DNA of 60,828 nucleotides, from positions 1 to 60,828 of the forward strand of contig JBFMDV010000012.1 of NCBI GenBank assembly GCA_040753875.1. The letters are read 5' to 3'. Shown here piece after piece: positions 14,676 to 31,258 of this stretch. This DNA comes from Candidatus Zixiibacteriota bacterium (GTDB taxonomy: Bacteria; Zixibacteria; MSB-5A5; GN15; FEB-12). The notes beneath the pieces were generated by a model. The model saw nothing but the letters and a program-made list of their open reading frames with translations, had not been told where the DNA came from and ran no database searches. Position numbers and translations under genes: made by a program. The number at the start of each line of letters is the position of its first letter. Within the stretch, counting starts at the first letter, position 1.

Positions 14676-17648
14676 TCAGAACGGTTTAAGGATAATGCCC
14701 CTGTTGGTACGACCGTTCATCTTGATAACGACCGGATGATCGAACCGATAATGGCGGACGAACTGTTTGTTGGTCACGGGACGTTGTCGACGCAACCAGC
14801 CCCAGTCCACAAACCCTTCCTGTGAGAACGCATTCACGCTGAAGTAACCGATCCGAGCCGATGTTATGTTCTGGAAGAAATGGCTCCCCTGCGATGGCGC
14901 CACATTGAAGTCCTTGAAACTTGATTCGACAATGGCGCGTACACCCGAAATCTGGTCCCAGGTCACCGGAATACCGAGCCATGGGTCGCTTGAGCCCCAT
15001 CGGCCCACCCCGATCAACGCGTAGGGGCGGCGGCGCAACACCAGGTCGGCGTTGAACTGACTCACCTCGCGGGCAACATCCATGCTTTTGTCGCGGCGAA
15101 ATCCATCCGGGTCAACAACTACCAGATCATATATCTCTGCCACCAACCCATTGCCCAGAACCTGCGGGCTCTGGCACAAGAGCCGCTCGGGCTCGACATT
15201 TTCGACATCGAGTTCTTCCAACTCGCGGCTCGTCACCAGCGGACGCATCTGCAAAAACGCGAACTCGCGCGGTGTGCCGCGTGGCACCGAGTGGTTGACG
15301 GCAAACTCTATTTCCACGGGCGAACTGAGTCCCCATCGCCCCATTTCCATGATCAGGTCGAGGATCTCGGCCAGTGGAAACAGCTCGTTTTTGAGAATCG
15401 GCGCAAATGTCACCAGCCGCACGCCGGGGCGCGAGAGTCCGTCCGTAATGGCATCGTTTTCACGAGAATAGGTCGAAGCCACGAGCGGAAGGGTACCATC
15501 CTGCTCGGCATATTCCAGCCCATAGCTGGTGAGTTTGATCTCCCGCGTGTGGTCGCTATTGCCGGCATATCGGCCCAAATCAAGCGCCCAGAACTCCCGC
15601 TGCGAATAGCGCAGGGTATCCTCCGTTCCGGAGAATTGCAGCAAGTGACGTGGGAATTTCGGACAGAACCGGATCGTGAAGCCGCCATCGACCACCGTCG
15701 TCCCAAGACCGAGTGCCACCGACGCAATGCCATCAGAGGGGATCATGGGGGGATGCGGATAAAAATTGTACGAGCGCACGACGCCGGCGAAGTCGGGATA
15801 GAAGCGTGAAGCGTGCCTGACACCGACCAGTTTCTGTATGATGACCGCCATCTTCTCTTCTTCGAGTCGATACGGAGTGGCGGCGATATAGGCTTTGGTC
15901 CGGGACGAAAACGTGGAGGCATACACTCGTTTGATGGCGCTGACCAGTTCCTGGAGACGGACAGCCGGATCCTCATGGTTGTTCGGCAGCATATACGTCT
16001 GGTAGATACCTGCGAACGGCTGGTATTTGGAGTCCTCAAGCAGGCTCGACGAGCGGACCGCAAGGGGATAGTCGACCATATCGATATATGCGGCCAGGTC
16101 GGCGGTTACGACTTCGGGCAAGTGCGCCGCCAGGAACCGGTCGTTGATCTCTGAGTCATTGGCAGCGTTGATAGCCCAATCGCGAAGATGGTTATGATCG
16201 AGGAACTGGTCGAATATGTCGGTAGCGACAATCACCGCCGGTGGGACATCGATACGCGTCCGCGGGAATCGTTCGTGCAGCTTGAAGTTTTTCAAAAGGG
16301 TGGTGACAAAGGCCAGCCCTCGTGCTTTGCCGCCAAGCGAGCCGGACCCGATACGGGCAAAACTGGCGTTTGGATCAAACGTGTCCGGATCGAAGTCCAT
16401 CACGGTACCCGTATGGCGCTCCCGTCGGAAATCACGAAGCGCCTTGATCAAGTCCTGACGAAGGTCTTCGACGGTGGGGAAATCGGTCACCTTGCGTGGA
16501 CGAAGCTGATGTGCCAGCCAGAACTCGGTACGGGCCTTGAGCCAGTTGGAAAAGTGGTTTCGTTCGGCGTGGTACTGAATCGACTCCTCCGGTACCACGG
16601 CCAGTTGTTCCTCCAGCGCTCGGAGATTTTCGGCATAGCCAACCGCCCGGCCATCAGAAAGTCGGAATACGAAGTCACCGAAGCTGAAATTCTCGATCAT
16701 GAATTGGCGCAACTGCTGTAGGAGAACGGGGGACCGTTTCCACAAAAATCCGGCGCCGATCTCACGCGCCCGCCCTTCGAACTGCGGGGAGTCCGACTGC
16801 AGGAGTATAGGAATGTCAAAATGGGCGGCCCGCACCTCGCGGGCGAGACGGATCCCGGCTTCGGGGTCCGGGTTTCCCCGGAACGGAAACTCGATATCCG
16901 AGATGACTCCCAGCACACAATCCTGGTACTTTTCATAGTACTGCCAGGCCTCTTCGTAGGTGGCACTGAGCAGAATCTTGGGGCGCGCACGCATGCGGAG
17001 GAGCTTGTGTGACAGGTTGACACTCTCGGCCATCAGGCTTTGGGAATGCTTGAACAGCTCGGTGTAAATGAGCGGCAGAAACGACGAGTAGTAGTTGATA
17101 TTATCCTCAATGACGATAATCGACTGCACACCGACCGCGTTGGTGTCATGATCCACATTCCGCTTGTCCTCGATATATTTCACCATGGCGATCAGGATGC
17201 GGAAATCTCCCTGCCAGACGAATATCTTCTCGAACACCGAGACATCGTGGTACGCGGTCAGCTCGATCAGTTCACGGTTGTCGTAGGTGAGCATGATGAC
17301 CGGAATGTCCAGTCCGGCTTTCTTGACCCGTCGGGCGAATTCGACGGCGTCCATATCCCCCAGATTCATGGTGGTGATGATCAGCCCGAACCGGCCTTCT
17401 TCGGCTGCTATGGTCAGCGCCTCAGCGCCGGTGGACACGCGTGTGATGCCCGGCGCATTGCTCAGATTGAGGTCAAGGTACTCGGAGAGGATCATCTCTG
17501 AGAGTCGCCCGTCCTCCTCGAGGATAAACGAGTCATATAAGCTGGAGACGAGCAATATCTCCCGTATCCGGAACCGCATCAGATTCTGGAACTGGTGGAA
17601 CCGGTTGGCGAATCCGTGCTCGGTCAGTAGCTTGTCAAAGTCCGACAT
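14676..17648 (-). CDS. Two receiver domains fused to a PPDK_N ATP-grasp domain and a GRWGS/GSHFF module
   Basis: A 990-residue cytoplasmic protein. Residues about 31-158 form a receiver-like domain whose phosphoacceptor position is Thr (LIITTMNLGDMD), so it is probably inactive. Residues about 176-310 form a second receiver with IIVIEDN, a candidate acceptor Asp near 251 (GVISDIEFPF) and Lys in FLWKRSP. Residues about 433-800 are PPDK_N, the nucleotide-binding domain of pyruvate phosphate dikinase/PEP synthase (GSGSLGGKARGLAFV; LAVRSSSLLED). Residues 882-990 carry GRWGSSDPW and SQGSHFF (His about 923), shared with the two neighbours at 20521 and 22272. No phosphohistidine swivelling domain or PEP barrel is seen. 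The ATG at 17648 has GAGG 9 nt upstream; the TTG at 17654 does not. Biochemical role unknown; a phospho-relay or phosphotransfer enzyme is inferred. Confidence 0.85.
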   Translation of the reverse strand: MSDFDKLLTEHGFANRFHQFQNLMRFRIREILLVSSLYDSFILEEDGRLSEMILSEYLDLNLSNAPGITRVSTGAEALTIAAEEGRFGLIITTMNLGDMDAVEFARRVKKAGLDIPVIMLTYDNRELIELTAYHDVSVFEKIFVWQGDFRILIAMVKYIEDKRNVDHDTNAVGVQSIIVIEDNINYYSSFLPLIYTELFKHSQSLMAESVNLSHKLLRMRARPKILLSATYEEAWQYYEKYQDCVLGVISDIEFPFRGNPDPEAGIRLAREVRAAHFDIPILLQSDSPQFEGRAREIGAGFLWKRSPVLLQQLRQFMIENFSFGDFVFRLSDGRAVGYAENLRALEEQLAVVPEESIQYHAERNHFSNWLKARTEFWLAHQLRPRKVTDFPTVEDLRQDLIKALRDFRRERHTGTVMDFDPDTFDPNASFARIGSGSLGGKARGLAFVTTLLKNFKLHERFPRTRIDVPPAVIVATDIFDQFLDHNHLRDWAINAANDSEINDRFLAAHLPEVVTADLAAYIDMVDYPLAVRSSSLLEDSKYQPFAGIYQTYMLPNNHEDPAVRLQELVSAIKRVYASTFSSRTKAYIAATPYRLEEEKMAVIIQKLVGVRHASRFYPDFAGVVRSYNFYPHPPMIPSDGIASVALGLGTTVVDGGFTIRFCPKFPRHLLQFSGTEDTLRYSQREFWALDLGRYAGNSDHTREIKLTSYGLEYAEQDGTLPLVASTYSRENDAITDGLSRPGVRLVTFAPILKNELFPLAEILDLIMEMGRWGLSSPVEIEFAVNHSVPRGTPREFAFLQMRPLVTSRELEELDVENVEPERLLCQSPQVLGNGLVAEIYDLVVVDPDGFRRDKSMDVAREVSQFNADLVLRRRPYALIGVGRWGSSDPWLGIPVTWDQISGVRAIVESSFKDFNVAPSQGSHFFQNITSARIGYFSVNAFSQEGFVDWGWLRRQRPVTNKQFVRHYRFDHPVVIKMNGRTNRGIILKPF

Positions 17649-17726
17649 GGTCAACGCCCTCAGGTGCGACAGCTATGATAGTTTATCGACAGAGCTGTCA
17701 CTCTCCGCATGGTGTGCCCATAATAT

Positions 17727-17788: not shown

Positions 17789-19153
17789 TCAGACTAAGCC
17801 CTGGTCCATCATGGCATCGGCGACCTTCAGGAACCCGGCGATATTGGCGCCGTTGACGTAGTTCCCCGGAGTGCCGAACCGATTGGAGGCCTCAACGCAG
17901 GACTTATGGATCGACTTCATGATGAGGTGCAGACGGTTGTCCACTTCCTCCCGCGTCCAGCCGTACCGCATTGAGTTCTGCGACATTTCCAGACCGGAAG
18001 TAGCCACACCACCGGCGTTGGCCGCTTTGCCGGGACCGTACAGAATCCGGTGATCGAGAAACACTTTCACACCTTCCGGTGTAGTCGGCATATTGGCTCC
18101 CTCGGAGACAACTGAGACGCCGTTTTTCACCAGGTTCTGCGCGTCTTTGCCGTTAATCTCGTTCTGCGTGGCGCTGGGGAAAGCGCAGTCCGCTTTGTGA
18201 TTCCAAAGAGGATTGTAGTCCATCTTGGGATCAATCGGCGTGTAGGTGGCGGTACGATATTTATCGGCGTATTCTTTGATACGTCCGCGCTTGACATTCT
18301 TCAGTTCCATGACAAACGCCAGCTTGTCGGCGTTGATTCCTTCGGGGTCGTAGATGTACCCGCCGGAATCGGAGACCGTCACGCACTTTCCGCCGAGCTG
18401 GTTGACTTTTTCGATCGTGTACTGGGCCACGTTACCGGAGCCGGACACGAGACAGGTCTTCCCCTGCAGCGACTGGTTCTTAGTCCCAAGCATTTCGGCC
18501 GCGAAGTAGGTGGCACCATAGCCTGTGGCCTCGGGACGAATCAGTGAGCCACCCCAGTTGAGTCCTTTACCGGTCAGCACGCCGGTGAATTCGTTGCGGA
18601 GCTTCTTGTACTGCCCAAACAGGAACCCGATCTCACGGCCGCCGACGCCTATGTCGCCCGCCGGGACGTCGGTGTCTGGACCAATATGGCGGCTCAGCTC
18701 GCTCATGAACGCCTGGCAGAACCGCATGACTTCGTTGTCACTCTTCCCTTTGGGGTCGAAATCGGAGCCGCCTTTGCCGCCCCCCATCGGAAGTGTGGTA
18801 AGGCTGTTTTTGAACACCTGTTCGAACGCAAGAAATTTCAGAATGCCGAGGTTAACCGACGGATGGAACCGCAGCCCCCCCTTGTACGGGCCGATGGCAC
18901 TGTTCATCTCGATACGGAAGCCACGGTTGACATGGATTTCTCCCTGGTCGTCTTGCCACGGCACTCGGAACAGGATGACGCGCTCTGGCTCCGCGATTCT
19001 CTCGAGAATCTTGGCCTTTCGGTATTCGGGGTGACGGTCCATCACGAGGGCGAGCGACTCGACCACTTCCTGGACTGCCTGGTGAAATTCCGGCTCGGCC
19101 GGGTTCTTGGCTTTGATGTGAGCCATAAAGCTCTGCACGTAATCAGCCGACAT
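17789..19153 (-). CDS. gdhA: NADP-type glutamate dehydrogenase
   Basis: A 454-residue hexameric-type GDH that makes glutamate from 2-oxoglutarate and ammonium with NADPH. Diagnostic segments are GPYKGGLRFHPSVNLGILKF, the glycine-rich catalytic-Lys motif PMGGGKGGSDFDPKG, DVPAGDIGVGGREIGFLFGQ, and the nucleotide-binding VSGSGNVAQYTIEK. Length and order match E. coli GdhA (447 residues). The start is the ATG at 19153, with AGGAG 8 nt upstream; open frame continues further upstream to 19309 but lacks homology-like sequence. An unusually long 580-bp upstream region suggests regulated expression. Its placement inside the ATP-grasp island may be functional or chance. Confidence 0.96.
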   Translation of the reverse strand: MSADYVQSFMAHIKAKNPAEPEFHQAVQEVVESLALVMDRHPEYRKAKILERIAEPERVILFRVPWQDDQGEIHVNRGFRIEMNSAIGPYKGGLRFHPSVNLGILKFLAFEQVFKNSLTTLPMGGGKGGSDFDPKGKSDNEVMRFCQAFMSELSRHIGPDTDVPAGDIGVGGREIGFLFGQYKKLRNEFTGVLTGKGLNWGGSLIRPEATGYGATYFAAEMLGTKNQSLQGKTCLVSGSGNVAQYTIEKVNQLGGKCVTVSDSGGYIYDPEGINADKLAFVMELKNVKRGRIKEYADKYRTATYTPIDPKMDYNPLWNHKADCAFPSATQNEINGKDAQNLVKNGVSVVSEGANMPTTPEGVKVFLDHRILYGPGKAANAGGVATSGLEMSQNSMRYGWTREEVDNRLHLIMKSIHKSCVEASNRFGTPGNYVNGANIAGFLKVADAMMDQGLV

Positions 19154-19732
19154 GAAGCAACTCCTTAGAGGAACAATCTCACTCTGGTTGTATGTTGGTC
19201 TTTTGTTGCCATACGATCCGGCGCCACACGGCATCCGATAAAAGCTTCGGAACCGCCGTGGACACATAACTCCATGGTCCAGTAACGACAGGGAACTGAT
19301 CTTTGGCAATAAGGGGAACCCCTATATCGCATAGGGAAAAGACCTGAGGGAGGTCGTAACTATCTAAGTTGCAAGCCGTTAAACGGGCATCATCATGGTT
19401 GCACCAATCACTCATCCGGCCCTCGGCTGCGCTTGTGGCATGCTCTTCGGGCAACAACGCCCTAAGGGAGAAGGGATTTCATGGCAAGTTCGATGTTCAC
19501 TGTTCCGTCAGGCGACCATGCCGTACGACTTATACACGCTGTCGGGAGCCGGACGTAACACGCGAAAACATAGTGTCTTTCGCGTCTCGACTGCGCTCGA
19601 CGCGACGATGCGACAATGCGATGAGTAAGCATCCATAGTTGTCGGTTCGAGCGAAGTCGAGAACCGAATACCAATCGTTTTCCCATCCCTATGTGACCGG
19701 ATCTCACGAAGTGACAGGTGAGGGGGATTGTC
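19154..19732. other. Long non-coding region upstream of gdhA
   Basis: This 579-bp stretch separates the gdhA start from the end of the response regulator gene. No convincing gene is present: the open frames here are short and read like random sequence. Visible structure includes a short palindrome AGGGGAACCCCT (about 19314-19325), a small hairpin GACCTGAGGGAGGTC (about 19341-19355), and the repeat pair described at 19581-19666. The gdhA promoter must lie here, but I cannot pick a convincing -35/-10. No known riboswitch class was recognised. Confidence 0.5.
19581..19666. repeat. Inverted pair of a 16-bp TCTCGACTKCGCTCGA repeat
   Basis: The core TCTCGACTGCGCTCGA is on the + strand (19585-19600), flanked by CGCGTC/GACGCG. 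The same core with T instead of G, TCTCGACTTCGCTCGA, is on the - strand within 19643-19666, flanked by CGGTTC/GAACCG. Each copy forms its own hairpin, and the two together can form a larger one. Repeats of this look are dispersed in many environmental genomes; origin and role are unknown. Confidence 0.65.
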
Positions 19733-20407
19733 TTACGGCTCGATAATATGATTCCGGATGCAATACTTGACGATATCAGTCACGTTTTTCGCGTTCAACT
19801 TTTTCATTATCGAGGCACGGTGAGTCTCGGCAGTTTTGGGGCTGATATTGAGAATGTCCGCGGCTTCCTTGGTGGAATAACCATCGGCCAGAAGGCGTGC
19901 GAGCTCCCGCTCCCGCTTGGTCACTATCCCGCCCGGTTTCAAAACATTGAGTGCGGGTTTGACATACTCCGCGACTACATCGCTTCCCGCAGGGCCGGAG
20001 AGATAAAAGTCACCGTTGGACGCCTTGCGGAGAGCGTACGAGAGCTCTTCGAAATCGCATCCTTTCAGCAGATAGCCGCGCCCGCCCGCCTCGAACGCCT
20101 CCCGCACCTGGTCCTCGCTGTAGGCGGATGACAGAAACACTATTTCCGTGCGCAACTGGAGGTCCCGAATCCGGCGCGCGGCGAGGATACCATCGATTAC
20201 CGGCATTTGAATATCCAAGAGGAGCACATCAGGGCTATGGGTTGCGACCTGATCGATAGCCTCTTGTCCATTGTGCGCCTCAGCGACCACTTCGAACTCG
20301 GTCGACGCCTTGAACAGCGCCACCAGCCCTTGTCGAAAAAGGGCTTGATCGTCCGCGACAACGACGCGGATTTTTGGTTTTTCAAGCGGAACCATAGCGG
20401 CAAACAT
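19733..20407 (-). CDS. NarL/LuxR-family response regulator
   Basis: Two-domain transcription factor, 224 residues from the ATG at 20407. Alternatives are ATG 20395 and GTG 20455; none has a good ribosome-binding site. The receiver domain has IRVVVADDQALFRQG at the N-terminus, phosphoacceptor D65 in LLLDIQMP, and the switch Lys in GYLLKG. The LuxR-type helix-turn-helix reads VTKRERELARLLADGYSTKE, then ISPKTAETHRASIMKKL. No histidine kinase gene is in the window. It is divergent from the PPDK_N gene at 20521 with 113 bp between them and follows the same island, so it may control that gene or gdhA (inference). Confidence 0.9.
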   Translation of the reverse strand: MFAAMVPLEKPKIRVVVADDQALFRQGLVALFKASTEFEVVAEAHNGQEAIDQVATHSPDVLLLDIQMPVIDGILAARRIRDLQLRTEIVFLSSAYSEDQVREAFEAGGRGYLLKGCDFEELSYALRKASNGDFYLSGPAGSDVVAEYVKPALNVLKPGGIVTKRERELARLLADGYSTKEAADILNISPKTAETHRASIMKKLNAKNVTDIVKYCIRNHIIEP

Positions 20408-20520
20408 AGCATGTAACGTCCGGTATTTCAATGGGTTTGTGGCGGGACAAGCCACGTGCTCCTTCGCACCAGTATTGACTTCCTCCCCCCTTTTCGCTAC
20501 CCATACCGTAGAGGTGCTTC

Positions 20521-22275
20521 ATGCGCGGCAAGGGCTATAACGTCTCCATCGACAACCTGACCCATTTTGACCGTCACTTCTTCGACGGCAAGGAGACGTT
20601 CACCTACATCGGCACCGGTGAACTCGGCGGCAAGGCCCAGGGGCTCGCCTTTGTGCGTGACCTGCTCGCACGTCGATACGATCCGAACGAATTCCCCCAA
20701 ATCACCGTCGCCGTACCCACGCTCGCAGTGGTAGCAACTGGTGCGTTTGATTCGTTCATGGAAGAGAACAACCTGCGAGATATTGCGTCGTCCGACCTCC
20801 GCGACGACCAGATCGCCCATGCGTTCCAAAAAGCCAGTCTGCCGCCCGAACTGGTGGGGGACCTGCGCGCCTTGATCTCCAAAGTGCACACGCCATTGGC
20901 AATTCGGTCATCAAGTCTGCTTGAGGATGCACTGTACGAGCCGTTTGCCGGTGTCTATGCGACCAAGATGATCCCCAATAACCAATTCGATGAGGACTCC
21001 CGTTTCCACCGGCTGACGGAGGCGATCAAGTTCGTCTATGCCTCGACTTTCTTCAAGAGCGCCCGCGACTATGTCCGCGCCACCGCGCAGGACGTCTCAT
21101 CCGAAAAGATGGCGGTCATCATTCAGGAAACGGTGGGGCTACGGTACGGCGACCGGTTTTATCCGACCATTGCGGGCGTGGGGCGTTCGTTCAACTACTA
21201 TCCATCCGGCAAAGCACGCCCGGAGGAGGGTGTTGTGGACCTGGCACTTGGGTTGGGGAAGACGATCGTCGATGGCGGCGTTGCCTATAGTTACTCGCCT
21301 ACGTATCCGAATGCCAACCCGGTCTACGGCTCGATCGACGGATTACTGGACCAATCCCAAAACGACTTCTGGGCCGTGAACATGGGGAAACCGCCGGAAT
21401 ATGATCCCATCCGAGAAACGGAGTATCTCACGAAAGAGATGCTTGCGGTGGCGGAACAGGATGGCACGCTCAGATTCGTCGCATCGACCTACAAACCGCA
21501 GGAGGACCGGATCGTACTTGGCATCGGTACACCGGGGCCACGGTTGGTCGATTTTTCTCCTGTTCTCAAGGTGGACCAGATTCCGCTCAACAAACTCATC
21601 AAACGACTGCTGGCATTGTGTCAAGAGGAAGTGCGGAGCGCGGTGGAGATTGAATTTGCGGTCACAATCGATCCGGTGAATCCGTCGCGAGCCCGGTTCG
21701 GTTTCTTGCAGGTGCGTCCGATGGTAGTCTCCGACGCCGTAGTTGACGTGGATGAAAGCGAACTGGGCAGACCAGATGCCGTGATCGCTTCAGACCGCGT
21801 GATGGGGAACGGCGCGCTCGATACGATACGCGATATCGTGTACGTCGTGCCGGAGACGTTCAATGCCGCCAATACGCGGGAGATCGCGCTCGAACTCGAG
21901 CAGATGAATCGTTCGCTGCTGGATGCAGGCCGTCCGTATCTGCTGGTTGGATTCGGCCGCTGGGGGAGCTCCGATCCGTGGCTGGGGATACCGGTCAACT
22001 GGGGTCAGATTTCCGGCGCCCGGGTGATAGTCGAGGCCACTCTGCCGAACATGAATGTCGATCTGAGCCAGGGATCCCATTTTTTCCACAACATTTCCAG
22101 CTTTCAGGTCCTATATTTCTGCGTGCACCATCTCGGCAAACATACCATCAGGTGGGACTGGCTGGCGGCCCAGAGGACGATGTCCCAAGCCGCCCATGTA
22201 CGCCACGTCGCGCTCGAGAAGCCGCTGGGCGTTAAGGTCGATGGCCGCACCGGCAGGGGGGTGATCATCGCATGA
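20521..22275 (+). CDS. Stand-alone PPDK_N ATP-grasp protein with GRWGS/GSHFF module
   Basis: A 584-residue cytoplasmic protein, the minimal member of the three-gene family. Residues about 30-400 are the PPDK_N ATP-grasp domain (GTGELGGKAQGLAFV near 33-47; LAIRSSSLLEDALYEPFAG near 126). A bridge with EIEFAV and FLQVRPMV closes the ATP-grasp. Residues 479-584 hold GRWGSSDPW and SQGSHFF (H520). No His swivelling domain, PEP barrel or receiver is present. AGAGGTG lies just before the ATG. It overlaps the next gene by 4 bp (ATGA), so the two are translationally coupled. The true reaction is unknown; PEP synthase annotation would be wrong because two of its three domains are missing. Confidence 0.85.
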   Translation: MRGKGYNVSIDNLTHFDRHFFDGKETFTYIGTGELGGKAQGLAFVRDLLARRYDPNEFPQITVAVPTLAVVATGAFDSFMEENNLRDIASSDLRDDQIAHAFQKASLPPELVGDLRALISKVHTPLAIRSSSLLEDALYEPFAGVYATKMIPNNQFDEDSRFHRLTEAIKFVYASTFFKSARDYVRATAQDVSSEKMAVIIQETVGLRYGDRFYPTIAGVGRSFNYYPSGKARPEEGVVDLALGLGKTIVDGGVAYSYSPTYPNANPVYGSIDGLLDQSQNDFWAVNMGKPPEYDPIRETEYLTKEMLAVAEQDGTLRFVASTYKPQEDRIVLGIGTPGPRLVDFSPVLKVDQIPLNKLIKRLLALCQEEVRSAVEIEFAVTIDPVNPSRARFGFLQVRPMVVSDAVVDVDESELGRPDAVIASDRVMGNGALDTIRDIVYVVPETFNAANTREIALELEQMNRSLLDAGRPYLLVGFGRWGSSDPWLGIPVNWGQISGARVIVEATLPNMNVDLSQGSHFFHNISSFQVLYFCVHHLGKHTIRWDWLAAQRTMSQAAHVRHVALEKPLGVKVDGRTGRGVIIA

Positions 22276-25200
22276 ACAATCCGCACGACAATCTCGACAA
22301 TCTTATCTGGTTTCTCAAGGAACGCCAGAAAGAGCTCAACTGCCTGTACACGATCGAAGAGATCCTGAGCCGCCATGATACGGATATCGCCCACGTCTGC
22401 GAGGCAGTCATCAAGGCGATTCCGCCCGGCTGGCAGTACCCGGAAGTGTGCGACGCCACCATCACGCTGAACGACAAGACCTATCAGTCCCCCGGCTTTG
22501 TCGACTCCCCCTGGCGCCTCAGCGCTCCCATAACCGTCGGGGAGAAACCGGTGGGGCGCATTTGTGTTTATTACACTCATGAACGGCCGGTAGCTGATGA
22601 CGGCCCGTTCCTCAAGGAGGAGGCGAAGTTAATCCGCACGATCGCGGACCGTTTCGGACATTACCTCATGTACAGCCAGATGAAGCACGTTCTGCATGAG
22701 TGGCAGACGGCCAAAGACAACATGCCGGCCGACCGTCGCGGCGAGTGGCGGGTGGTGCTTGACCTGCTTCGCGAAACCGACAAGAACCTGTACCTGAGCA
22801 TATCGCACAAGATGCTCAACCATCTCTGCTGGAGCGGTGTCGAAGAGGCCAAGAAACTGGTCCGGTACTACAGCCCCGACGCCCGCCAGGAAGAGGACGA
22901 ATTGCTGCGTGACAGTAATATCCCGCACCAACGACGGTCGATGCTCCTCTCCAACGATTTCCTCAGCGATGAAACCTTCCAGATAGCGTCGGACCATATG
23001 AGCGACGACGAGATCCTCGCGTTCATCCAGGGCCGCATCCAGGAAGACAAGCTCAGTTTCCTGGTCCGGGCGCTCAATCGGAACCTTCCGCTGACTGAGA
23101 TCGCCGATGCCATCCGGCGGTACCATCGCATAGCACCCTCGGTCATGGAGTTCGGCCTGCCCACGCTGCGGGGCGTGCACGCGGCATTGATCCGGCGATT
23201 CTTTTCCGAGCAGATGCAGTTCGTCAACGTGGCAAAGAACTACATCGAGATCGAGGATTTCTACAAGGTACTTCAGAATATCATCTTTACAGCCGAAAGC
23301 AGCGGTAAGCTGGGGGGCAAGAGCGCCGGATTGTATCTGGCCGCCAGCATTCTCCGTCTCGCCGGCAAAACCAACGAGCTGCTGGCCAAGGTGAAGACCC
23401 CCAAGACCTGGTATATCACCTCTGACGCGCTCATGTCATTCATGCACTACAACAATCTTGAAGAGATAGTTGAGCAGAAGTACAAAGAGATCGACCAAGT
23501 GCGGCTGGAGTACCCACACGTGGTACAGACGTTCAAGAACTCGCATTTTCCGCCGGAGATCCTCAAAGGGCTGTCGGTGGCTCTCGACGATCTCGGCGAC
23601 CGCCCGCTGATCGTGCGAAGTTCCAGCCTGCTGGAGGATCGCATGGGGTCCGCATTCTCCGGAAAGTACAAGAGCCTGTTCCTGGCCAATCAGGGAGACA
23701 AGAAAGTGCGATTGGAAGCGCTCACGGATGCAATCGCAGAGGTGTACGCCTCGACTTTTGGCCCCGACCCTATCGAGTACCGCGCCGAAAGAAACCTGCT
23801 GGATTTCTATGAAGAGATGGGGATCATGATTCAGGAAGTGGTCGGCACTCGGATTGGCGACTACTTCCTGCCCGCCTACGCCGGAGTGGCGTTCAGCCAC
23901 AACGAATTTCGCTGGTCGCCCCGCATCAAGCGGGAAGACGGCCTGCTGCGCTTGGTTCCGGGGCTCGGCACTCGCGCGGTCGATCGACTGAGTGATGACT
24001 ACCCGGTTCTGATCGCCCCCGGCCAGCCCGGCTTGCGCGTAAACGTGACGATCGACGAGGCAATCCGGTACTCACCGAAAAAGGCAGATCTTATCAATCT
24101 AAGAACGAACCGGTTTGAAACGGTGGAGATGAATGATCTGATCAGACAACATGGTAACGCCATGCCGAACATAAGCGAGATCGTCTCCCTGTTCAGTGAT
24201 GACCACCTCCATTCCTATTTCGATCCCAGCGCGGACCTCACGACAGAACAGGCTTTGGTGACATTTGAAGGGCTGCTCACGCGCACGAGCTTTGTCAAAC
24301 AAATTCAGGCAATTCTGAGAGAGCTCGAGGAGAAGATTGGTACTCCGGTGGATATCGAATTCGCGTGTGACGGCCAGGATTTCTATTTGCTCCAGTGCCG
24401 ACCGCAGAGCTCATCCGAGATCGCCGGCGGGGCCGTCATACCGCATGACTTGCCGACCGAGCGGGTGGTTTTTTCTGCGAATAGGTATGTCTCCAATGGC
24501 CGGGTGCCCGATATCACCCACATCGTGTACGTTGACCCGCAGAAATACAACGAACTTACCGACCGCTCCACAATGCTGGAAGTGGGACGGGTGATCGGGC
24601 GGCTGAACAAGGTACTACCGAAACGGCAATTCATTCTGATGGGTCCCGGCCGATGGGGGAGCCGCGGCGATATCAAACTTGGCGTCAGCGTGACGTATTC
24701 GGACATAAACAACACGGCCTCACTCGTCGAGATCGCACGTAAGAAAGGGAATTACACACCGGACCTCTCATTCGGCACGCATTTCTTTCAGGATCTGGTT
24801 GAGGCCAACATCCGGTATCTGCCGCTGTACCCCGATGAGCCGGGTGTCATGTTCAACGAAGTATTTCTTACCGGTGCCGCGAACATCTTGCGCGATATTG
24901 TCCCCGAATACGAATATCTGTCCGACACGGTGCGGCTTATCGATATACCATCGAGCGCCAACGGTCAGGTGCTGCAACTATTGATGAATGCCGATTTAGA
25001 CCAGGCGATAGCCGTGCTGGCGCCGCCGCGGTCGTATGCCGACAAATCGGCCGCCCCGTGTCCGCAGGAAGAACAGGTCACCGAAAGCGCCTGGCGATGG
25101 CGGCTTCGCGCCGCGGAGCATATCGCCTCTCAGCTTGACCCGCAGCGGTTTGGCGTGAAGGGGCTTTATATCTTTGGCAGCACCAAGAACGCCACCGCCG

Positions 25201-25451
25201 GACCGCGCAGCGATATCGATCTGCTCATTCATGTCGGCGGGACTGACTTGCAGTGTGAAATGCTGAAAATCTGGCTTGAGGGGTGGAGCCTGGCGCTCGA
25301 CGACATGAACTACCGCCGCACCGGCTACAAGAGCGGCGGGCTACTGGACGTTCATATCATCACGGATGACGACATCGCGCGCAAGACCAGCTACGCGGCC
25401 AAGATCAACGCCGTCACTGATGCCGCCAGACCACTTCAGATGAGCCGGTAG
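22272..25451 (+). CDS. Sensor, PPDK_N ATP-grasp, GRWGS/GTHFF module and nucleotidyltransferase in one chain
   Basis: A 1059-residue cytoplasmic protein. Residues about 15-140 form a GAF-like sensor resembling those that precede histidine kinases (WQYPEVCDATITL, PVGRICVYYT, GPFLKEEAKLI). A helical linker follows. The ATP-grasp domain occupies about 340-720 (SGKLGGKSAGLYLA; LIVRSSSLLED). The shared module has GRWGSRGDIK at 793 and SFGTHFF with H837. Residues about 940-1059 are an MNT/Pol-beta-type nucleotidyltransferase: G969-S970, D981-x-D983 (RSDIDLLI) and a likely third carboxylate D1026. All nucleotidyltransferase acidic residues are present, so activity is plausible. Co-transcribed with the 20521 gene. 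I infer signal-dependent phospho- or nucleotidyl-transfer; substrate unknown. Confidence 0.85.
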   Translation: MNNPHDNLDNLIWFLKERQKELNCLYTIEEILSRHDTDIAHVCEAVIKAIPPGWQYPEVCDATITLNDKTYQSPGFVDSPWRLSAPITVGEKPVGRICVYYTHERPVADDGPFLKEEAKLIRTIADRFGHYLMYSQMKHVLHEWQTAKDNMPADRRGEWRVVLDLLRETDKNLYLSISHKMLNHLCWSGVEEAKKLVRYYSPDARQEEDELLRDSNIPHQRRSMLLSNDFLSDETFQIASDHMSDDEILAFIQGRIQEDKLSFLVRALNRNLPLTEIADAIRRYHRIAPSVMEFGLPTLRGVHAALIRRFFSEQMQFVNVAKNYIEIEDFYKVLQNIIFTAESSGKLGGKSAGLYLAASILRLAGKTNELLAKVKTPKTWYITSDALMSFMHYNNLEEIVEQKYKEIDQVRLEYPHVVQTFKNSHFPPEILKGLSVALDDLGDRPLIVRSSSLLEDRMGSAFSGKYKSLFLANQGDKKVRLEALTDAIAEVYASTFGPDPIEYRAERNLLDFYEEMGIMIQEVVGTRIGDYFLPAYAGVAFSHNEFRWSPRIKREDGLLRLVPGLGTRAVDRLSDDYPVLIAPGQPGLRVNVTIDEAIRYSPKKADLINLRTNRFETVEMNDLIRQHGNAMPNISEIVSLFSDDHLHSYFDPSADLTTEQALVTFEGLLTRTSFVKQIQAILRELEEKIGTPVDIEFACDGQDFYLLQCRPQSSSEIAGGAVIPHDLPTERVVFSANRYVSNGRVPDITHIVYVDPQKYNELTDRSTMLEVGRVIGRLNKVLPKRQFILMGPGRWGSRGDIKLGVSVTYSDINNTASLVEIARKKGNYTPDLSFGTHFFQDLVEANIRYLPLYPDEPGVMFNEVFLTGAANILRDIVPEYEYLSDTVRLIDIPSSANGQVLQLLMNADLDQAIAVLAPPRSYADKSAAPCPQEEQVTESAWRWRLRAAEHIASQLDPQRFGVKGLYIFGSTKNATAGPRSDIDLLIHVGGTDLQCEMLKIWLEGWSLALDDMNYRRTGYKSGGLLDVHIITDDDIARKTSYAAKINAVTDAARPLQMSR

Positions 25452-25453
25452 TC

Positions 25454-26332
25454 TTACAGCAGTTCTCGCGTCGCCGCCGACGGATTCTCAAGATCAAACC
25501 GAACCAGCGCCAGTTCCGGGCCATCGTGAGCGGCGGAAAACGACAGGGTCCTCCCAATCTGCTGGCGCCACTGACCGGTCAGACGGGCCGATTCGTGGAT
25601 GTGACCATGGAGTGTAATCAGGGGCTGCCGCTTCTCGATGAGTCGGCGAATAGCAATGCTCCCCACATGCACCGGAACCGGCACATAGTCAACCATCATG
25701 CCATCAAGACCGGCGCGGTCCAGACACGTATCGTGCGGCGGGGAATGAAGTAGAAGCACGCTTTGCGACAGATCATCGTCGGCTGTCAGCGCCGCCAGGT
25801 CTTTTTCGATAGTCCCGTATCGAATTTCGTGGGCTTCGACTGGCAATGAGCGATAGCCTTCCTCGGGCGAGATCGAGCCGGGATCAACATAACGAGACAC
25901 GTCGTACCGCTCCCAGTCTTTCATGAGAAACGGCGTCGGAGATACGCAAGCGTAGCCGTAGACGGAGTGCTTGCCCAATGTTATCTTCTTGTTGTGGATG
26001 TATTCCCACAGCCCCGCCTTCTCTCCCGCGATCATACCTTCTTCTTCACCCCGGCTGTCATCGTTGCCGAGAATGGCGAACACGCGAGGGTAGTTCGGCC
26101 CCATAGACCGTTTCAGCTCAGCGAAACTTGGCGCAAGAAAGTCGGCGATAAAATCCTCGTGCGGTGAATCGGGTGACGAGAACTGCCACAGTCCGGACGG
26201 CAACAGGTCACCGCCCAGAAACACGGCCACTGGTGTCTCCGCCTTGATTCGATGAAACAGCTTGCGATACCGCTCTTCGCTGCCGTGTAGGTCGGTGGCA
26301 AAAAGACAGGAATGTTGTGATATCTTGTCCAT
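25454..26332 (-). CDS. Calcineurin-type metallophosphoesterase
   Basis: A 292-residue protein with the full metal-site series: TDLHG, GGDLL, GNDDS, LLHSPPHDT and HGHIHES. It resembles the bacterial Icc/YfcE-like group, but its substrate (cyclic nucleotide, other phosphodiester or protein phosphate) cannot be told. It faces the 1059-residue protein convergently with only 2 nt between stop codons. This proximity to a predicted nucleotidyltransferase is suggestive but not evidence of a shared pathway. ATG at 26332. Confidence 0.88.
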   Translation of the reverse strand: MDKISQHSCLFATDLHGSEERYRKLFHRIKAETPVAVFLGGDLLPSGLWQFSSPDSPHEDFIADFLAPSFAELKRSMGPNYPRVFAILGNDDSRGEEEGMIAGEKAGLWEYIHNKKITLGKHSVYGYACVSPTPFLMKDWERYDVSRYVDPGSISPEEGYRSLPVEAHEIRYGTIEKDLAALTADDDLSQSVLLLHSPPHDTCLDRAGLDGMMVDYVPVPVHVGSIAIRRLIEKRQPLITLHGHIHESARLTGQWRQQIGRTLSFSAAHDGPELALVRFDLENPSAATRELL

Positions 26333-26486: not shown

Positions 26487-28334
26487 TCAGAGCTTGAAGC
26501 AGGGCTTTACTGGCAGTGGGCCACCGAAGGCAAACCAGTCTATAAAATACTGGAGGTCGCTGTTATCAACAGTACCATCGCAGTCACAGTCCGCGAGCGC
26601 TGCTGAAGGGAATATCTGCCCACCGAAAAAAAGGTAATCAACGATCACTGAAAGATCGCTAATGTCGAGCAGACCATCGTTACTGGCATCACCGTGCGAC
26701 AGTGACAGTACCGCCCCGAAGGCATCGACCCTGCCATAGCCATATTGGGTAGTGAAGCGGGAGTTAGTCCCCCAATCAAGCGTCGTATCCGCCGACTGTT
26801 TTAATATGTAGTAGACAGAGTTCGAAGAAAGGCCCGGATCCTTGGCCAGCACCAGGGCTGCCGCTCCTGCTACAAGAGGACCGGTGGCCGAAGTACCACC
26901 AAACTTGCAATCGTAGTCGACGTCATTCGGGCTGCTGCAGTTCCAGGTGACCGAGTAGCCACAAACTGACGTGACATTCGGGTTGAATCCTGCCGTACCC
27001 ATCTGATCTAACGTCCAGACGTCCCCCTGCAGACAGAAGTTACCGCTCGGCGCGACCACGTCCAGGTCACCACCATAGCAACTGTAGCTCCAACGGACGT
27101 CATTCAGTTGCAGCGCGCCAACGGCGAAACAGAACGGTTTGTTTGAAGGATATAGCACGTAACTGGTACCGGCGTTACCAGCCGCAAATATCACAGGGCA
27201 CCCCTTACCGCCTCTCCCAAACAGCGAAGCCCTCTCCAAGGCATCGTTGAGCACTGGGAATCCGTCTCCGGTAAATCCGTATCCCCAGCTATTCGAAAGC
27301 ACATCCGCACCGCTCTGGTAGGCATAGGATATTGCGTCTGCTACCCGGGTGACGTCTGATGTTCCAATGCCATTGTCATCGAATATCTTGACAGGCAGGA
27401 TCTCGACTGCGGGGGACATCGAGATGACCCCGCTGCCCGTGTTCACGCCCGAGAGGCTGTCCGTGGTGTGAGAGGCGCCAATGATACCTGCGCAGCCCAT
27501 ACCATGTGCCTCCAGATTGCCCGGAGCCGGATTGTCATCGTATGGAGTGCCTGCAATACCAGAGAAATCTCGGCCAGGAAGAACACGAGATTGCGGCAAA
27601 TCCTCGTGCGTGGTAACGCCGTCATCGACCACTGCAACTACGATAGTATCGATGGCACCGTGTATGTCCCAGACAGAAGCTGAATTGAAAGCTCCGATGA
27701 CCCGTTTCAGGTGAAACTGGCTCCCGTTGTAACGGTCATACAGTTTGTAGGTGAATCGCACCGGGCGAATCCCAAAAATCGGGTGCGAAAAACGCACTCC
27801 TGCCGCGTCGTGGAGATCGTTGGCCACAGTCAGCAGGCGTTTGCTGCCGGGGTCGGCGTTTCCCAGCACGTAGCAGTCCGGCAAGTACTCTAACTTTCGA
27901 GCAATAGCGGCACCATAATTCGCAGCAGTAGCAGCGACCGCTGATGAATCCATCCAGTCCTCAAAACCGGCCACCAGTTCACTTCCAACTGGAGCAGGCA
28001 CAGTGTCTGACAGGTAATAATACGGCTCGGCTGCCTCAATACCGATGGAATTGTTGAGCGTATCCAGAAAGGCATAGAGGTCACCTCCTGCTCCAATTAC
28101 CACGGCAAAAAAGCCGTTGATCATGTTGCTGTCCGGCGTCACGTAGCGAAGCCGGGAGTGCATGTCGAAAACCTGCTGCAGCGGAATCGTTGTGTCGAAC
28201 TTGATGGCAATCACGAAGCTGTCTACGCGAAGCGCTACCGGCCCGACGCTTCCGTAGTATGACTCGGCTTTGGCAAACACGAAGGTGGCCATAATGACCG
28301 AGCATGCCAAGCTTATCCATTTGAGAAATCGCAT
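26487..28334 (-). CDS. Secreted S8 (subtilisin-like) protease with dockerin-like tail
   Basis: A 615-residue secreted protein. It has a signal peptide (LKWISLACSVIMATFVFAKA), a pro-region of about 190 residues, the S8 catalytic domain and a dockerin-like C-terminus. The triad is visible as D237 (VVDDGV), H277 (EAHGMGC) and S482 (GGTSATGP). These motifs depart from the usual DTG/HGTH/GTSMA pattern, so it is a divergent but apparently complete enzyme. The tail has DASNDGLLDISDL...DYLFFGG, then CDGTVDNSDLQYFIDWFAFGG-like sequence, ending PCFKL. GAGGAGGG precedes the ATG. It lies 21 nt after the beta-propeller lipoprotein gene, so they are co-transcribed. The tail probably anchors or sorts the protein. 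Confidence 0.88.
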   Translation of the reverse strand: MRFLKWISLACSVIMATFVFAKAESYYGSVGPVALRVDSFVIAIKFDTTIPLQQVFDMHSRLRYVTPDSNMINGFFAVVIGAGGDLYAFLDTLNNSIGIEAAEPYYYLSDTVPAPVGSELVAGFEDWMDSSAVAATAANYGAAIARKLEYLPDCYVLGNADPGSKRLLTVANDLHDAAGVRFSHPIFGIRPVRFTYKLYDRYNGSQFHLKRVIGAFNSASVWDIHGAIDTIVVAVVDDGVTTHEDLPQSRVLPGRDFSGIAGTPYDDNPAPGNLEAHGMGCAGIIGASHTTDSLSGVNTGSGVISMSPAVEILPVKIFDDNGIGTSDVTRVADAISYAYQSGADVLSNSWGYGFTGDGFPVLNDALERASLFGRGGKGCPVIFAAGNAGTSYVLYPSNKPFCFAVGALQLNDVRWSYSCYGGDLDVVAPSGNFCLQGDVWTLDQMGTAGFNPNVTSVCGYSVTWNCSSPNDVDYDCKFGGTSATGPLVAGAAALVLAKDPGLSSNSVYYILKQSADTTLDWGTNSRFTTQYGYGRVDAFGAVLSLSHGDASNDGLLDISDLSVIVDYLFFGGQIFPSAALADCDCDGTVDNSDLQYFIDWFAFGGPLPVKPCFKL

Positions 28335-29743: not shown

Positions 29744-31258
29744 TCAATACCCCGACTCCGGCGTGTGGCAGTCGGTGCACTTGGCCTCTTTCCAGGCATC
29801 GTCGATATCCTCCGGATGCTGGAAATCAAGCCCGGCAATATCTTGCGCCAGATCGTGCACGTTCTCCGACGGCCCCTGCGCCACGATCAAGTGGCAAGTC
29901 CGGCAGTCGTTCTTGATCGTTTCCCCCTTGTCGTTCACTTTCTTGTTGTCGTGGCAACGGAAGCAGCCGTCGTTGACAAAGTGGCTCAGGTTGTTCTCCC
30001 GCGCCCGATAATCCGTTTTCATTTCCGGGAAGAAGTTCTCGGCATAGATAGTCTGAAGGGTTCTCGTGGCCTGCTCGATGTTTGCAGCCTGTGCTTGAGC
30101 CACATCGGGACTGTTCTCCTGATAATAATCCTTCAGCCCGCTGCCGATTTTCGTCTGCGCATCTTCCCGCGTGCTGTACTGCGCGTTCAGCAGATCGAGC
30201 CCCACCTGCCGCACCGACGGCAGCGTCGGCGATATCTGTCGCGTGGATAATGCCAGATTCAGTGCCGTCGCCGGAGCCAGAAACTTGTGGCTGGGCCGGT
30301 TGTGGCAGTCCATGCAATCGAACTTGCGGATTTCGACGGTCGGATCGGCTGTATCCGGTATGGATGCATCCGGGTCCGTGAACACGGATACCGTGCCGTC
30401 CCGTTTGGTGATGCGCACCCATGGGATGTTTTGTCGTTTGGCGTCGGTGGCAATGTATTCAACTTTGTTTTCCGCCAGCATGTGCCAGTGTATTCCTTCC
30501 AACCTGCCGGTGCGCGGATTGCCGCCGCCGATCTTCACCAGCAGATTGATCGTCCATGGCGAGTTGGCTTCATCGGTGCGGTAATAGGTCTTGGTGACCA
30601 GCTTCTCGCCGTAAAACTGCCGTGGCCAGTGACACCCCTCACAGGTCTGTTGCGCCGGGCGAAGGTTGCTTACCGGTGTCTGTATCGGCCGTTCGTAGGT
30701 ATCAAGCGCGGTGCGCCAGAGCTGACGGGTACCATCCAGTTTGGATTTTACATAGAACGATGCTCCGGGTCCGATATGACAATCGACGCAGGGAATTCGG
30801 GCATGCGGTGAATTCTGGTAGGTGACATATTGCGGCTCCATCACGGTGTGACAGGTCTTGCCGCAGAACGCCACCGAATCGGTGGCCTCATACGCGCGAT
30901 AGCCACTGTAGGCAACCAGAAGCACCAGCACGGCTGTCAGCCCCAGAAACAGCCACAGGTTGCGCATGTAGCTGGGGTCCGAGGGATCGATATAGAGATT
31001 GAACCGAACCCTCTCGCCGCGCCGGTGCGCCTGACGGACCTGGACCACGACCGCGATCAGGAATAGTACCACGCCAATCGTCACAACAGCCGGCGAGATA
31101 ACAAATGTCACCAGCGAGGTGTACGGATTCTCGGCCGGGGCCGCCAGGTCGATAAGGAGAAGAATCAGGAACAGGAACCCGCCGGCCATGACGAGGGCTC
31201 CACCCAATGCCGCCAGCGGGTGGCGATATAATGTCCGTTTTCTCAGTATCTCGTTCAC
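29744..31258 (-). CDS. NapC/NirT-family multihaem c-type cytochrome, seven haem sites
   Basis: A 504-residue membrane-anchored cytochrome. The N-terminal part has three hydrophobic helices (about 15-40, 48-75 and 100-122). The periplasmic part has one CX3CH site (CGKTCH, followed by TVMEP) and six CXXCH sites: CVDCH, CEGCH, CMDCH, CFRCH, CRTCH and CTDCH. The spacing FCGKTCHTVMEP...SPHARIPCVDCHIGPGAS is the NapC/NirT quinol-oxidase start, seen in delta-proteobacterial relatives. It probably takes electrons from menaquinol to periplasmic reductases or other cytochromes. No partner reductase is adjacent, so terminal acceptor is unknown. Confidence 0.9.
   Translation of the reverse strand: MNEILRKRTLYRHPLAALGGALVMAGGFLFLILLLIDLAAPAENPYTSLVTFVISPAVVTIGVVLFLIAVVVQVRQAHRRGERVRFNLYIDPSDPSYMRNLWLFLGLTAVLVLLVAYSGYRAYEATDSVAFCGKTCHTVMEPQYVTYQNSPHARIPCVDCHIGPGASFYVKSKLDGTRQLWRTALDTYERPIQTPVSNLRPAQQTCEGCHWPRQFYGEKLVTKTYYRTDEANSPWTINLLVKIGGGNPRTGRLEGIHWHMLAENKVEYIATDAKRQNIPWVRITKRDGTVSVFTDPDASIPDTADPTVEIRKFDCMDCHNRPSHKFLAPATALNLALSTRQISPTLPSVRQVGLDLLNAQYSTREDAQTKIGSGLKDYYQENSPDVAQAQAANIEQATRTLQTIYAENFFPEMKTDYRARENNLSHFVNDGCFRCHDNKKVNDKGETIKNDCRTCHLIVAQGPSENVHDLAQDIAGLDFQHPEDIDDAWKEAKCTDCHTPESGY

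Follow-up and report, generated by a model that had tools for sequence, protein, structure and literature searches.

The window analyzed here, a 60,828-nucleotide stretch of a Candidatus Zixiibacteriota genome (contig JBFMDV010000012.1), contains a gene (P1; 22272..25451, + strand) that forms an uninterrupted open reading frame of 1059 codons. As judged from this frame, Pfam matches and full-length relatives, its product joins a sensor-like N-terminus, an ATP-grasp domain of the PPDK_N type, a conserved C domain and a nucleotidyltransferase (NTase) domain. Residues 1–150 (22272..22721, +) resemble a domain of sensor histidine kinases encoded in the same and in related genomes. The first-pass annotation had described this region as a GAF-like sensor; the likeness to sensors held, but the GAF label was weak, the Pfam match (E = 0.054) lying under its cut-off, and "sensor-like" seems a fair name given the similarity found. 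The PPDK_N domain named in the same annotation was confirmed at residues 346–715 (23307..24416, +; PF01326, E = 1.6e-59). Within it, K350, R449, E696, Q708 and R710, which we take to be the counterparts of PPDK ATP-site residues, were invariant in 26 relatives.

The C-terminus of P1 matched NTP_transf_2 (PF01909) at residues 958–989, with an E-value of 3.7e-5 and 24.5 bits against a cut-off of 21. An NTase had previously been placed at 24960-25451; its location proved correct, while the conserved domain, delimited by the Pfam match, the alignment and the fold match to MNT, AAD(9) and ANT enzymes, is somewhat narrower, at about residues 934–1057 (25071..25442, +). In line with the earlier claim of a complete MNT-type active site, G969-S970 (25176..25181), D981-x-D983 (25212..25220) and D1026, the predicted third catalytic Asp (25347..25349), were read from the + strand at exactly the residues proposed. 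The stretches GSTKN, SDIDLL and LLDVHI begin at residues 969, 980 and 1024, respectively, and ten residues separate S970 from D981, so that the motif reads GSX10DXD, which in MntA has been shown by mutation to be needed for adenylylation (PMC7641770). The G, the S and the first and third Asp were invariant across 27 aligned NTase domains from related genomes, and all five active-site residues were kept in 96 of 102 distinct NTase domains, the exceptions being D983N (four), S970R (one) and D1026N (one); the motif in P1 is therefore beyond chance. Further, an AlphaFold model of residues 716–1059 (mean pLDDT 81.7) gave MNT, AAD(9), AadA and ANT nucleotidyltransferases as its top PDB matches. These matches were modest (E-values from 1.5e-3 to 0.05; TM-score by target about 0.5 at best), and the predicted model thus lends moderate support to an NTase fold. 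We regard the domain as a predicted active MNT-type nucleotidyltransferase and probably an adenylyltransferase. A GlnE identity for P1 was rejected, no PF03710 match being present in the protein.

P1 lies in a compact neighborhood. Upstream, and overlapping the P1 start by 4 bases at its 3' end, is P2 (20521..22275, +), a 584-residue protein composed of PPDK_N (Pfam, E = 1.4e-33) and a C domain. Convergent with the NTase end of P1 is a gene for a calcineurin-like metallophosphoesterase, MPE (25454..26332, −; PF00149, E = 2.1e-9), in which the motifs DxHG, GGD, GNDD, H and GHxH are conserved. Divergent from P2 is a LuxR-type response regulator identified by Pfam (19733..20455, −), and next to it an NADP-type glutamate dehydrogenase (GDH), GdhA (17789..19309, −; NCBIfam NF006929, 761.9 bits against a cut-off of 536), whose true start is probably inside the open reading frame given. 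A further gene, RRPPDK (14676..17654, −), located 3' of gdhA, encodes a receiver, DUF5752 and PPDK_N, as assigned by Pfam, and a C domain. Beyond MPE, a 615-residue frame (26487-28334, −) has, by eye, the look of a secreted protease of the subtilisin type that ends in a dockerin-like region, and a 504-residue frame (29744-31258, −), in which several CxxCH heme motifs are visible by eye, is likely a multiheme cytochrome.

The C domain of P1 (residues 715–915; 24414..25016, +), defined from an alignment and an AlphaFold model, spans up to 200 residues after PPDK_N and recurs in both P2 and RRPPDK. It had no Pfam match. G793, R794 and H837 were invariant in 135 sequences, and the model built from these sequences was of high confidence (pLDDT 95, pTM 0.91), with no convincing match in a Foldseek search of the PDB (best E-value 0.014, probability 0.20). 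Its location C-terminal to PPDK_N, the invariant histidine and the succession of its secondary-structure elements had raised the idea of a phospho-histidine swiveling domain. This candidate was rejected, as HHalign gave a probability of 0.2 against PPDK His domains (a thin template from one enzyme type) and no such domain appeared among the 50 Foldseek matches listed.

The distribution of P1 was determined in a first sample of 61 genomes (its own, and others of the same family and order), in a second sample of 119 genomes from the phylum of one Aminicenantes genome, and by a pattern scan of bacterial and archaeal genomes that returned at least 518 NTase relatives, from which 80 loci were kept. 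The first sample held many full-length copies, mostly 55–67% identical. By their record titles, the kept loci belong to Zixiibacteriota, Aminicenantes, Krumholzibacteriota, Latescibacterota, Spirochaetes, Chloroflexi, Planctomycetes, Acidobacteria, Ignavibacteria, Bacteroidetes and others. In the fetched loci, in which some genomes occur twice, 89 NTase frames showed the complete order of N-terminus, middle, PPDK_N, C and NTase; the shorter ones are mostly cut off where the contig stops, and in two cases the NTase forms a gene of its own. The P1 fusion, with about 80 distinct near-full-length copies in many phyla, is a real family.

A GDH gene was found near P1 in 59 of 66 flank-complete loci, irrespective of the presence of MPE (44 of 47 loci with MPE and 15 of 19 without), and it is often directly upstream of P2-P1 or of P1. 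Across many phyla the recurrent order is GDH > P2 > P1 with MPE convergent to P1, and P2 immediately precedes P1 in 56 of 79 loci. The two copies of the operonic GDH (GDH2) that were scanned came nearest to archaeal-type GDH models, but under the cut-offs of those models. In the window the NADP-type GdhA, encoded on the other strand and separated by the response regulator, stands in for the operonic GDH, and a GDH of the 428-residue type sits elsewhere in the same genome (G000:C30, 77% identity). Relatives often carry a parallel operon ordered LuxR-type response regulator > GdhA > RRPPDK (loci L176-L191), and gdhA is directly upstream of RRPPDK (receiver-DUF5752-PPDK_N) in most loci seen. In three GDH2 copies (L041:7417-8748, L104:2124-3458 and L112:487-1779) the Lys of GGxKGG is replaced (GGAMGG, GGSSGG), and such copies are perhaps no longer catalytic.

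The partner that travels with the NTase itself is a specific MPE, not GDH. MPE was detected at good score in 20 of the 61 genomes, 19 of which hold the NTase (Fisher p = 1e-6), and in seven of the 119 genomes, each of them one of the 12 that carry the NTase (p = 1.4e-8), the relatives entering these Fisher tests not being statistically independent. The exception in the first sample, G036, carries at locus L209 a GDH2 followed by a truncated MPE, and neither P1, P2 nor the NTase was detected in that stretch. In the second sample MPE adjoins the NTase in six of the seven genomes that have it. Further, five genomes possess a free NTase gene, away from GDH and in each case convergent with MPE (L034, L036, L196, L197 and L198), and in L199 MPE lies 3' of P1 in the same orientation, the two genes overlapping by 4 bases, so the pairing survives changes of both fusion and orientation. 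Conversely, two P1 homologs that lack the NTase (L062 and L064) still adjoin GDH. The genomes of L196-L198 carry, together at another site, a gene resembling RRPPDK and an open frame with PPDK_N that is 793–921 residues long, which would fit an NTase split from P1. On the P1 tree, NTase and MPE provided only two independent pairs for comparison.

The presence of MPE also followed that of P2. Near P1, in the 66 flank-complete loci, both were present in 39, only P2 in three, only MPE in eight and neither in 16 (p = 5e-7). On supported branches of the tree of 92 P1 sequences, P2-or-RRPPDK and MPE changed together in eight of eight independent pairs (p = 0.008). MPE thus tracks P2/RRPPDK as well as the NTase, which counts against the writer/eraser reading set out below: in L200 it follows RRPPDK at a distance of 10 kb from P1, and in L195 it adjoins a P2 where P1 is missing. 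Among the flank-complete loci, D983N was limited to those without MPE nearby (0 of 47 against 3 of 19, p = 0.02), and the copies with this substitution are scattered on the tree; together with the association between P2 and MPE, this pattern agrees with an NTase that needs MPE and a P2-type protein for its function. However, the NTase is intact in 13 of the 16 loci with neither neighbor, where it may work without P2 and MPE or these may lie elsewhere in the genome, and L138 has kept MPE and P2 yet carries D1026N. As a counterpoint to a writer/eraser pair, convergent neighbors can persist for reasons besides a common substrate.

Building on the domain, motif, fold match, family-wide conservation and gene linkage directly observed for the P1 NTase, we tentatively propose a reversible nucleotidylylation switch on the GDH-linked PPDK_N machinery, with a P2-type protein as the likeliest target, and give it slightly less than an even chance. 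The P1 NTase would act as the writer that attaches a nucleotide to the target and the neighboring MPE as the eraser that takes it off again. The target would most likely be a P2-type PPDK_N protein, either P2 or RRPPDK, and the N-terminal domain of P1 would supply the signal. Nucleotidylylation would then tune the GDH-linked ATP-grasp activity, GDH being the metabolic partner. An action of the NTase/MPE pair with P2-type PPDK_N proteins is suggested by the free NTases, which retain MPE but lie away from GDH, and by L062 and L064, which lack the NTase yet adjoin GDH. That a switch of this kind on proteins with PPDK_N and C domains, coupled to GDH, is widespread and performs a job comparable to that of GlnE/GlnD is possible rather than probable.

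Alternatively, the NTase might make a nucleotidylated metabolite or a nucleotide signal that MPE degrades and that the P2-type proteins bind or use, a reading which we consider rather unlikely, albeit with several points in its favor. MPE is a calcineurin-like phosphoesterase, a family that includes many nucleotide phosphodiesterases, and the closest folds of the NTase include the antibiotic nucleotidyltransferases AAD(9), AadA and ANT, which modify small molecules. An adenylyltransferase whose substrate is the metabolite 3-phosphoglycerate has also been reported (PMC13431035). However, no metabolite-binding site or product was identified, and modification of a protein would accord just as well with the fusion of the NTase to a polypeptide that has conserved protein partners.

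The first-pass annotation had suggested that the NTase modifies partner proteins or GDH in the manner of GlnE. The link to GDH was borne out by the 59 of 66 loci and the directly upstream position that GDH often takes with respect to P1, and GdhA to RRPPDK. GlnE (PF03710) was absent from all 61 genomes (the own genome and 60 relatives) in a search that was positive in the E. coli, Caulobacter and Corynebacterium controls, which leaves room for a GlnE-like job, and PII was found in just 12 of the 61, the own genome included. A direct version of this idea, in which the NTase adenylylates GdhA or the archaeal-type GDH2 and MPE reverses the reaction, nonetheless appears unlikely: GDH goes with the PPDK_N part (L062, L064) and MPE with the NTase, the free NTases being away from GDH, and the loss of the GGxKGG Lys in a few operonic GDH2 copies would be odd for a regulated enzyme. 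The partner that emerged is MPE, with a putative P2-type target, rather than GDH as the substrate of a simple GlnE analog.

Two other explanations are weaker still. A catalytically dead NTase, or a purely structural NTP-binding domain, could account for the D983N, S970R and D1026N substitutions, but the active site is intact in 96 of the 102 domains, over many phyla and with the window copy included, which renders this highly improbable. The chance that the domain is a type VII toxin–antitoxin antitoxin (MntA-like) fused to an enzyme is negligible, since, the fold match to HEPN-MNT antitoxins notwithstanding, the MntA antitoxin model NF047752 matched P1 and a free NTase at 19.1 and 21.7 bits, far under the NCBIfam cut-off of 60 bits, the identified conserved neighbors (P2, GDH, MPE, RRPPDK and the response regulator) are not HEPN proteins, and no HEPN toxin was found among the scanned window neighbors (P2, GdhA, response regulator, RRPPDK, MPE) or the recurrent synteny partners.

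Returning to the proposed writer and eraser, the gene and domain data suggest a reversible switch on nitrogen metabolism that is as yet undescribed. GDH is one of the main routes by which ammonium enters metabolism. The conserved NTase and MPE unit tied to GDH-linked PPDK_N proteins offers a candidate mechanism of nitrogen control for many phyla that have received little study. To our knowledge, a calcineurin-like phosphoesterase that removes protein-bound nucleotide would be a new type of eraser. In the literature searched, to which most subscription journals did not belong, there was no description of an NTase/MPE/PPDK_N system, no paper on DUF5752, no paper joining deAMPylation with a metallophosphoesterase and no PF00149 protein that removes protein-bound nucleotide.

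Among known systems, the P1 NTase has the MNT fold and GSX10DXD in common with MntA, the antitoxin of type VII HEPN-MNT systems (PDB 7ae9, 7bxo, 8xeh), whose known activity is adenylyl transfer to a protein (PMC7641770). Unlike MntA, it is fused to PPDK_N, paired with a metallophosphoesterase and has no HEPN among its conserved neighbors. It shares the polymerase-beta-like NTase fold with the aminoglycoside nucleotidyltransferases AAD(9), AadA and ANT, although the structural match is weak, with about 12–22% identity in the structural alignments, and P1 lacks a drug-modifying context. The likeness to GlnE/GlnD would consist in a sensor region and a nucleotidylylation step connected with nitrogen metabolism, whereas, in contrast to GlnE, P1 has no PF03710 match and its eraser would be a separate phosphoesterase. 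With PPDK and PEP synthase P1 shares the PPDK_N ATP-grasp domain and its conserved residues, but it is devoid of the PEP-utilizers phospho-His domain (no PF00391) and of the PEP/pyruvate-binding TIM barrel, in the place of which it has the unannotated C domain. Finally, MPE displays the metal-site motifs of the calcineurin-like metallophosphoesterases (PF00149) and differs from other members of that family in forming a subfamily linked to P1-type NTases.
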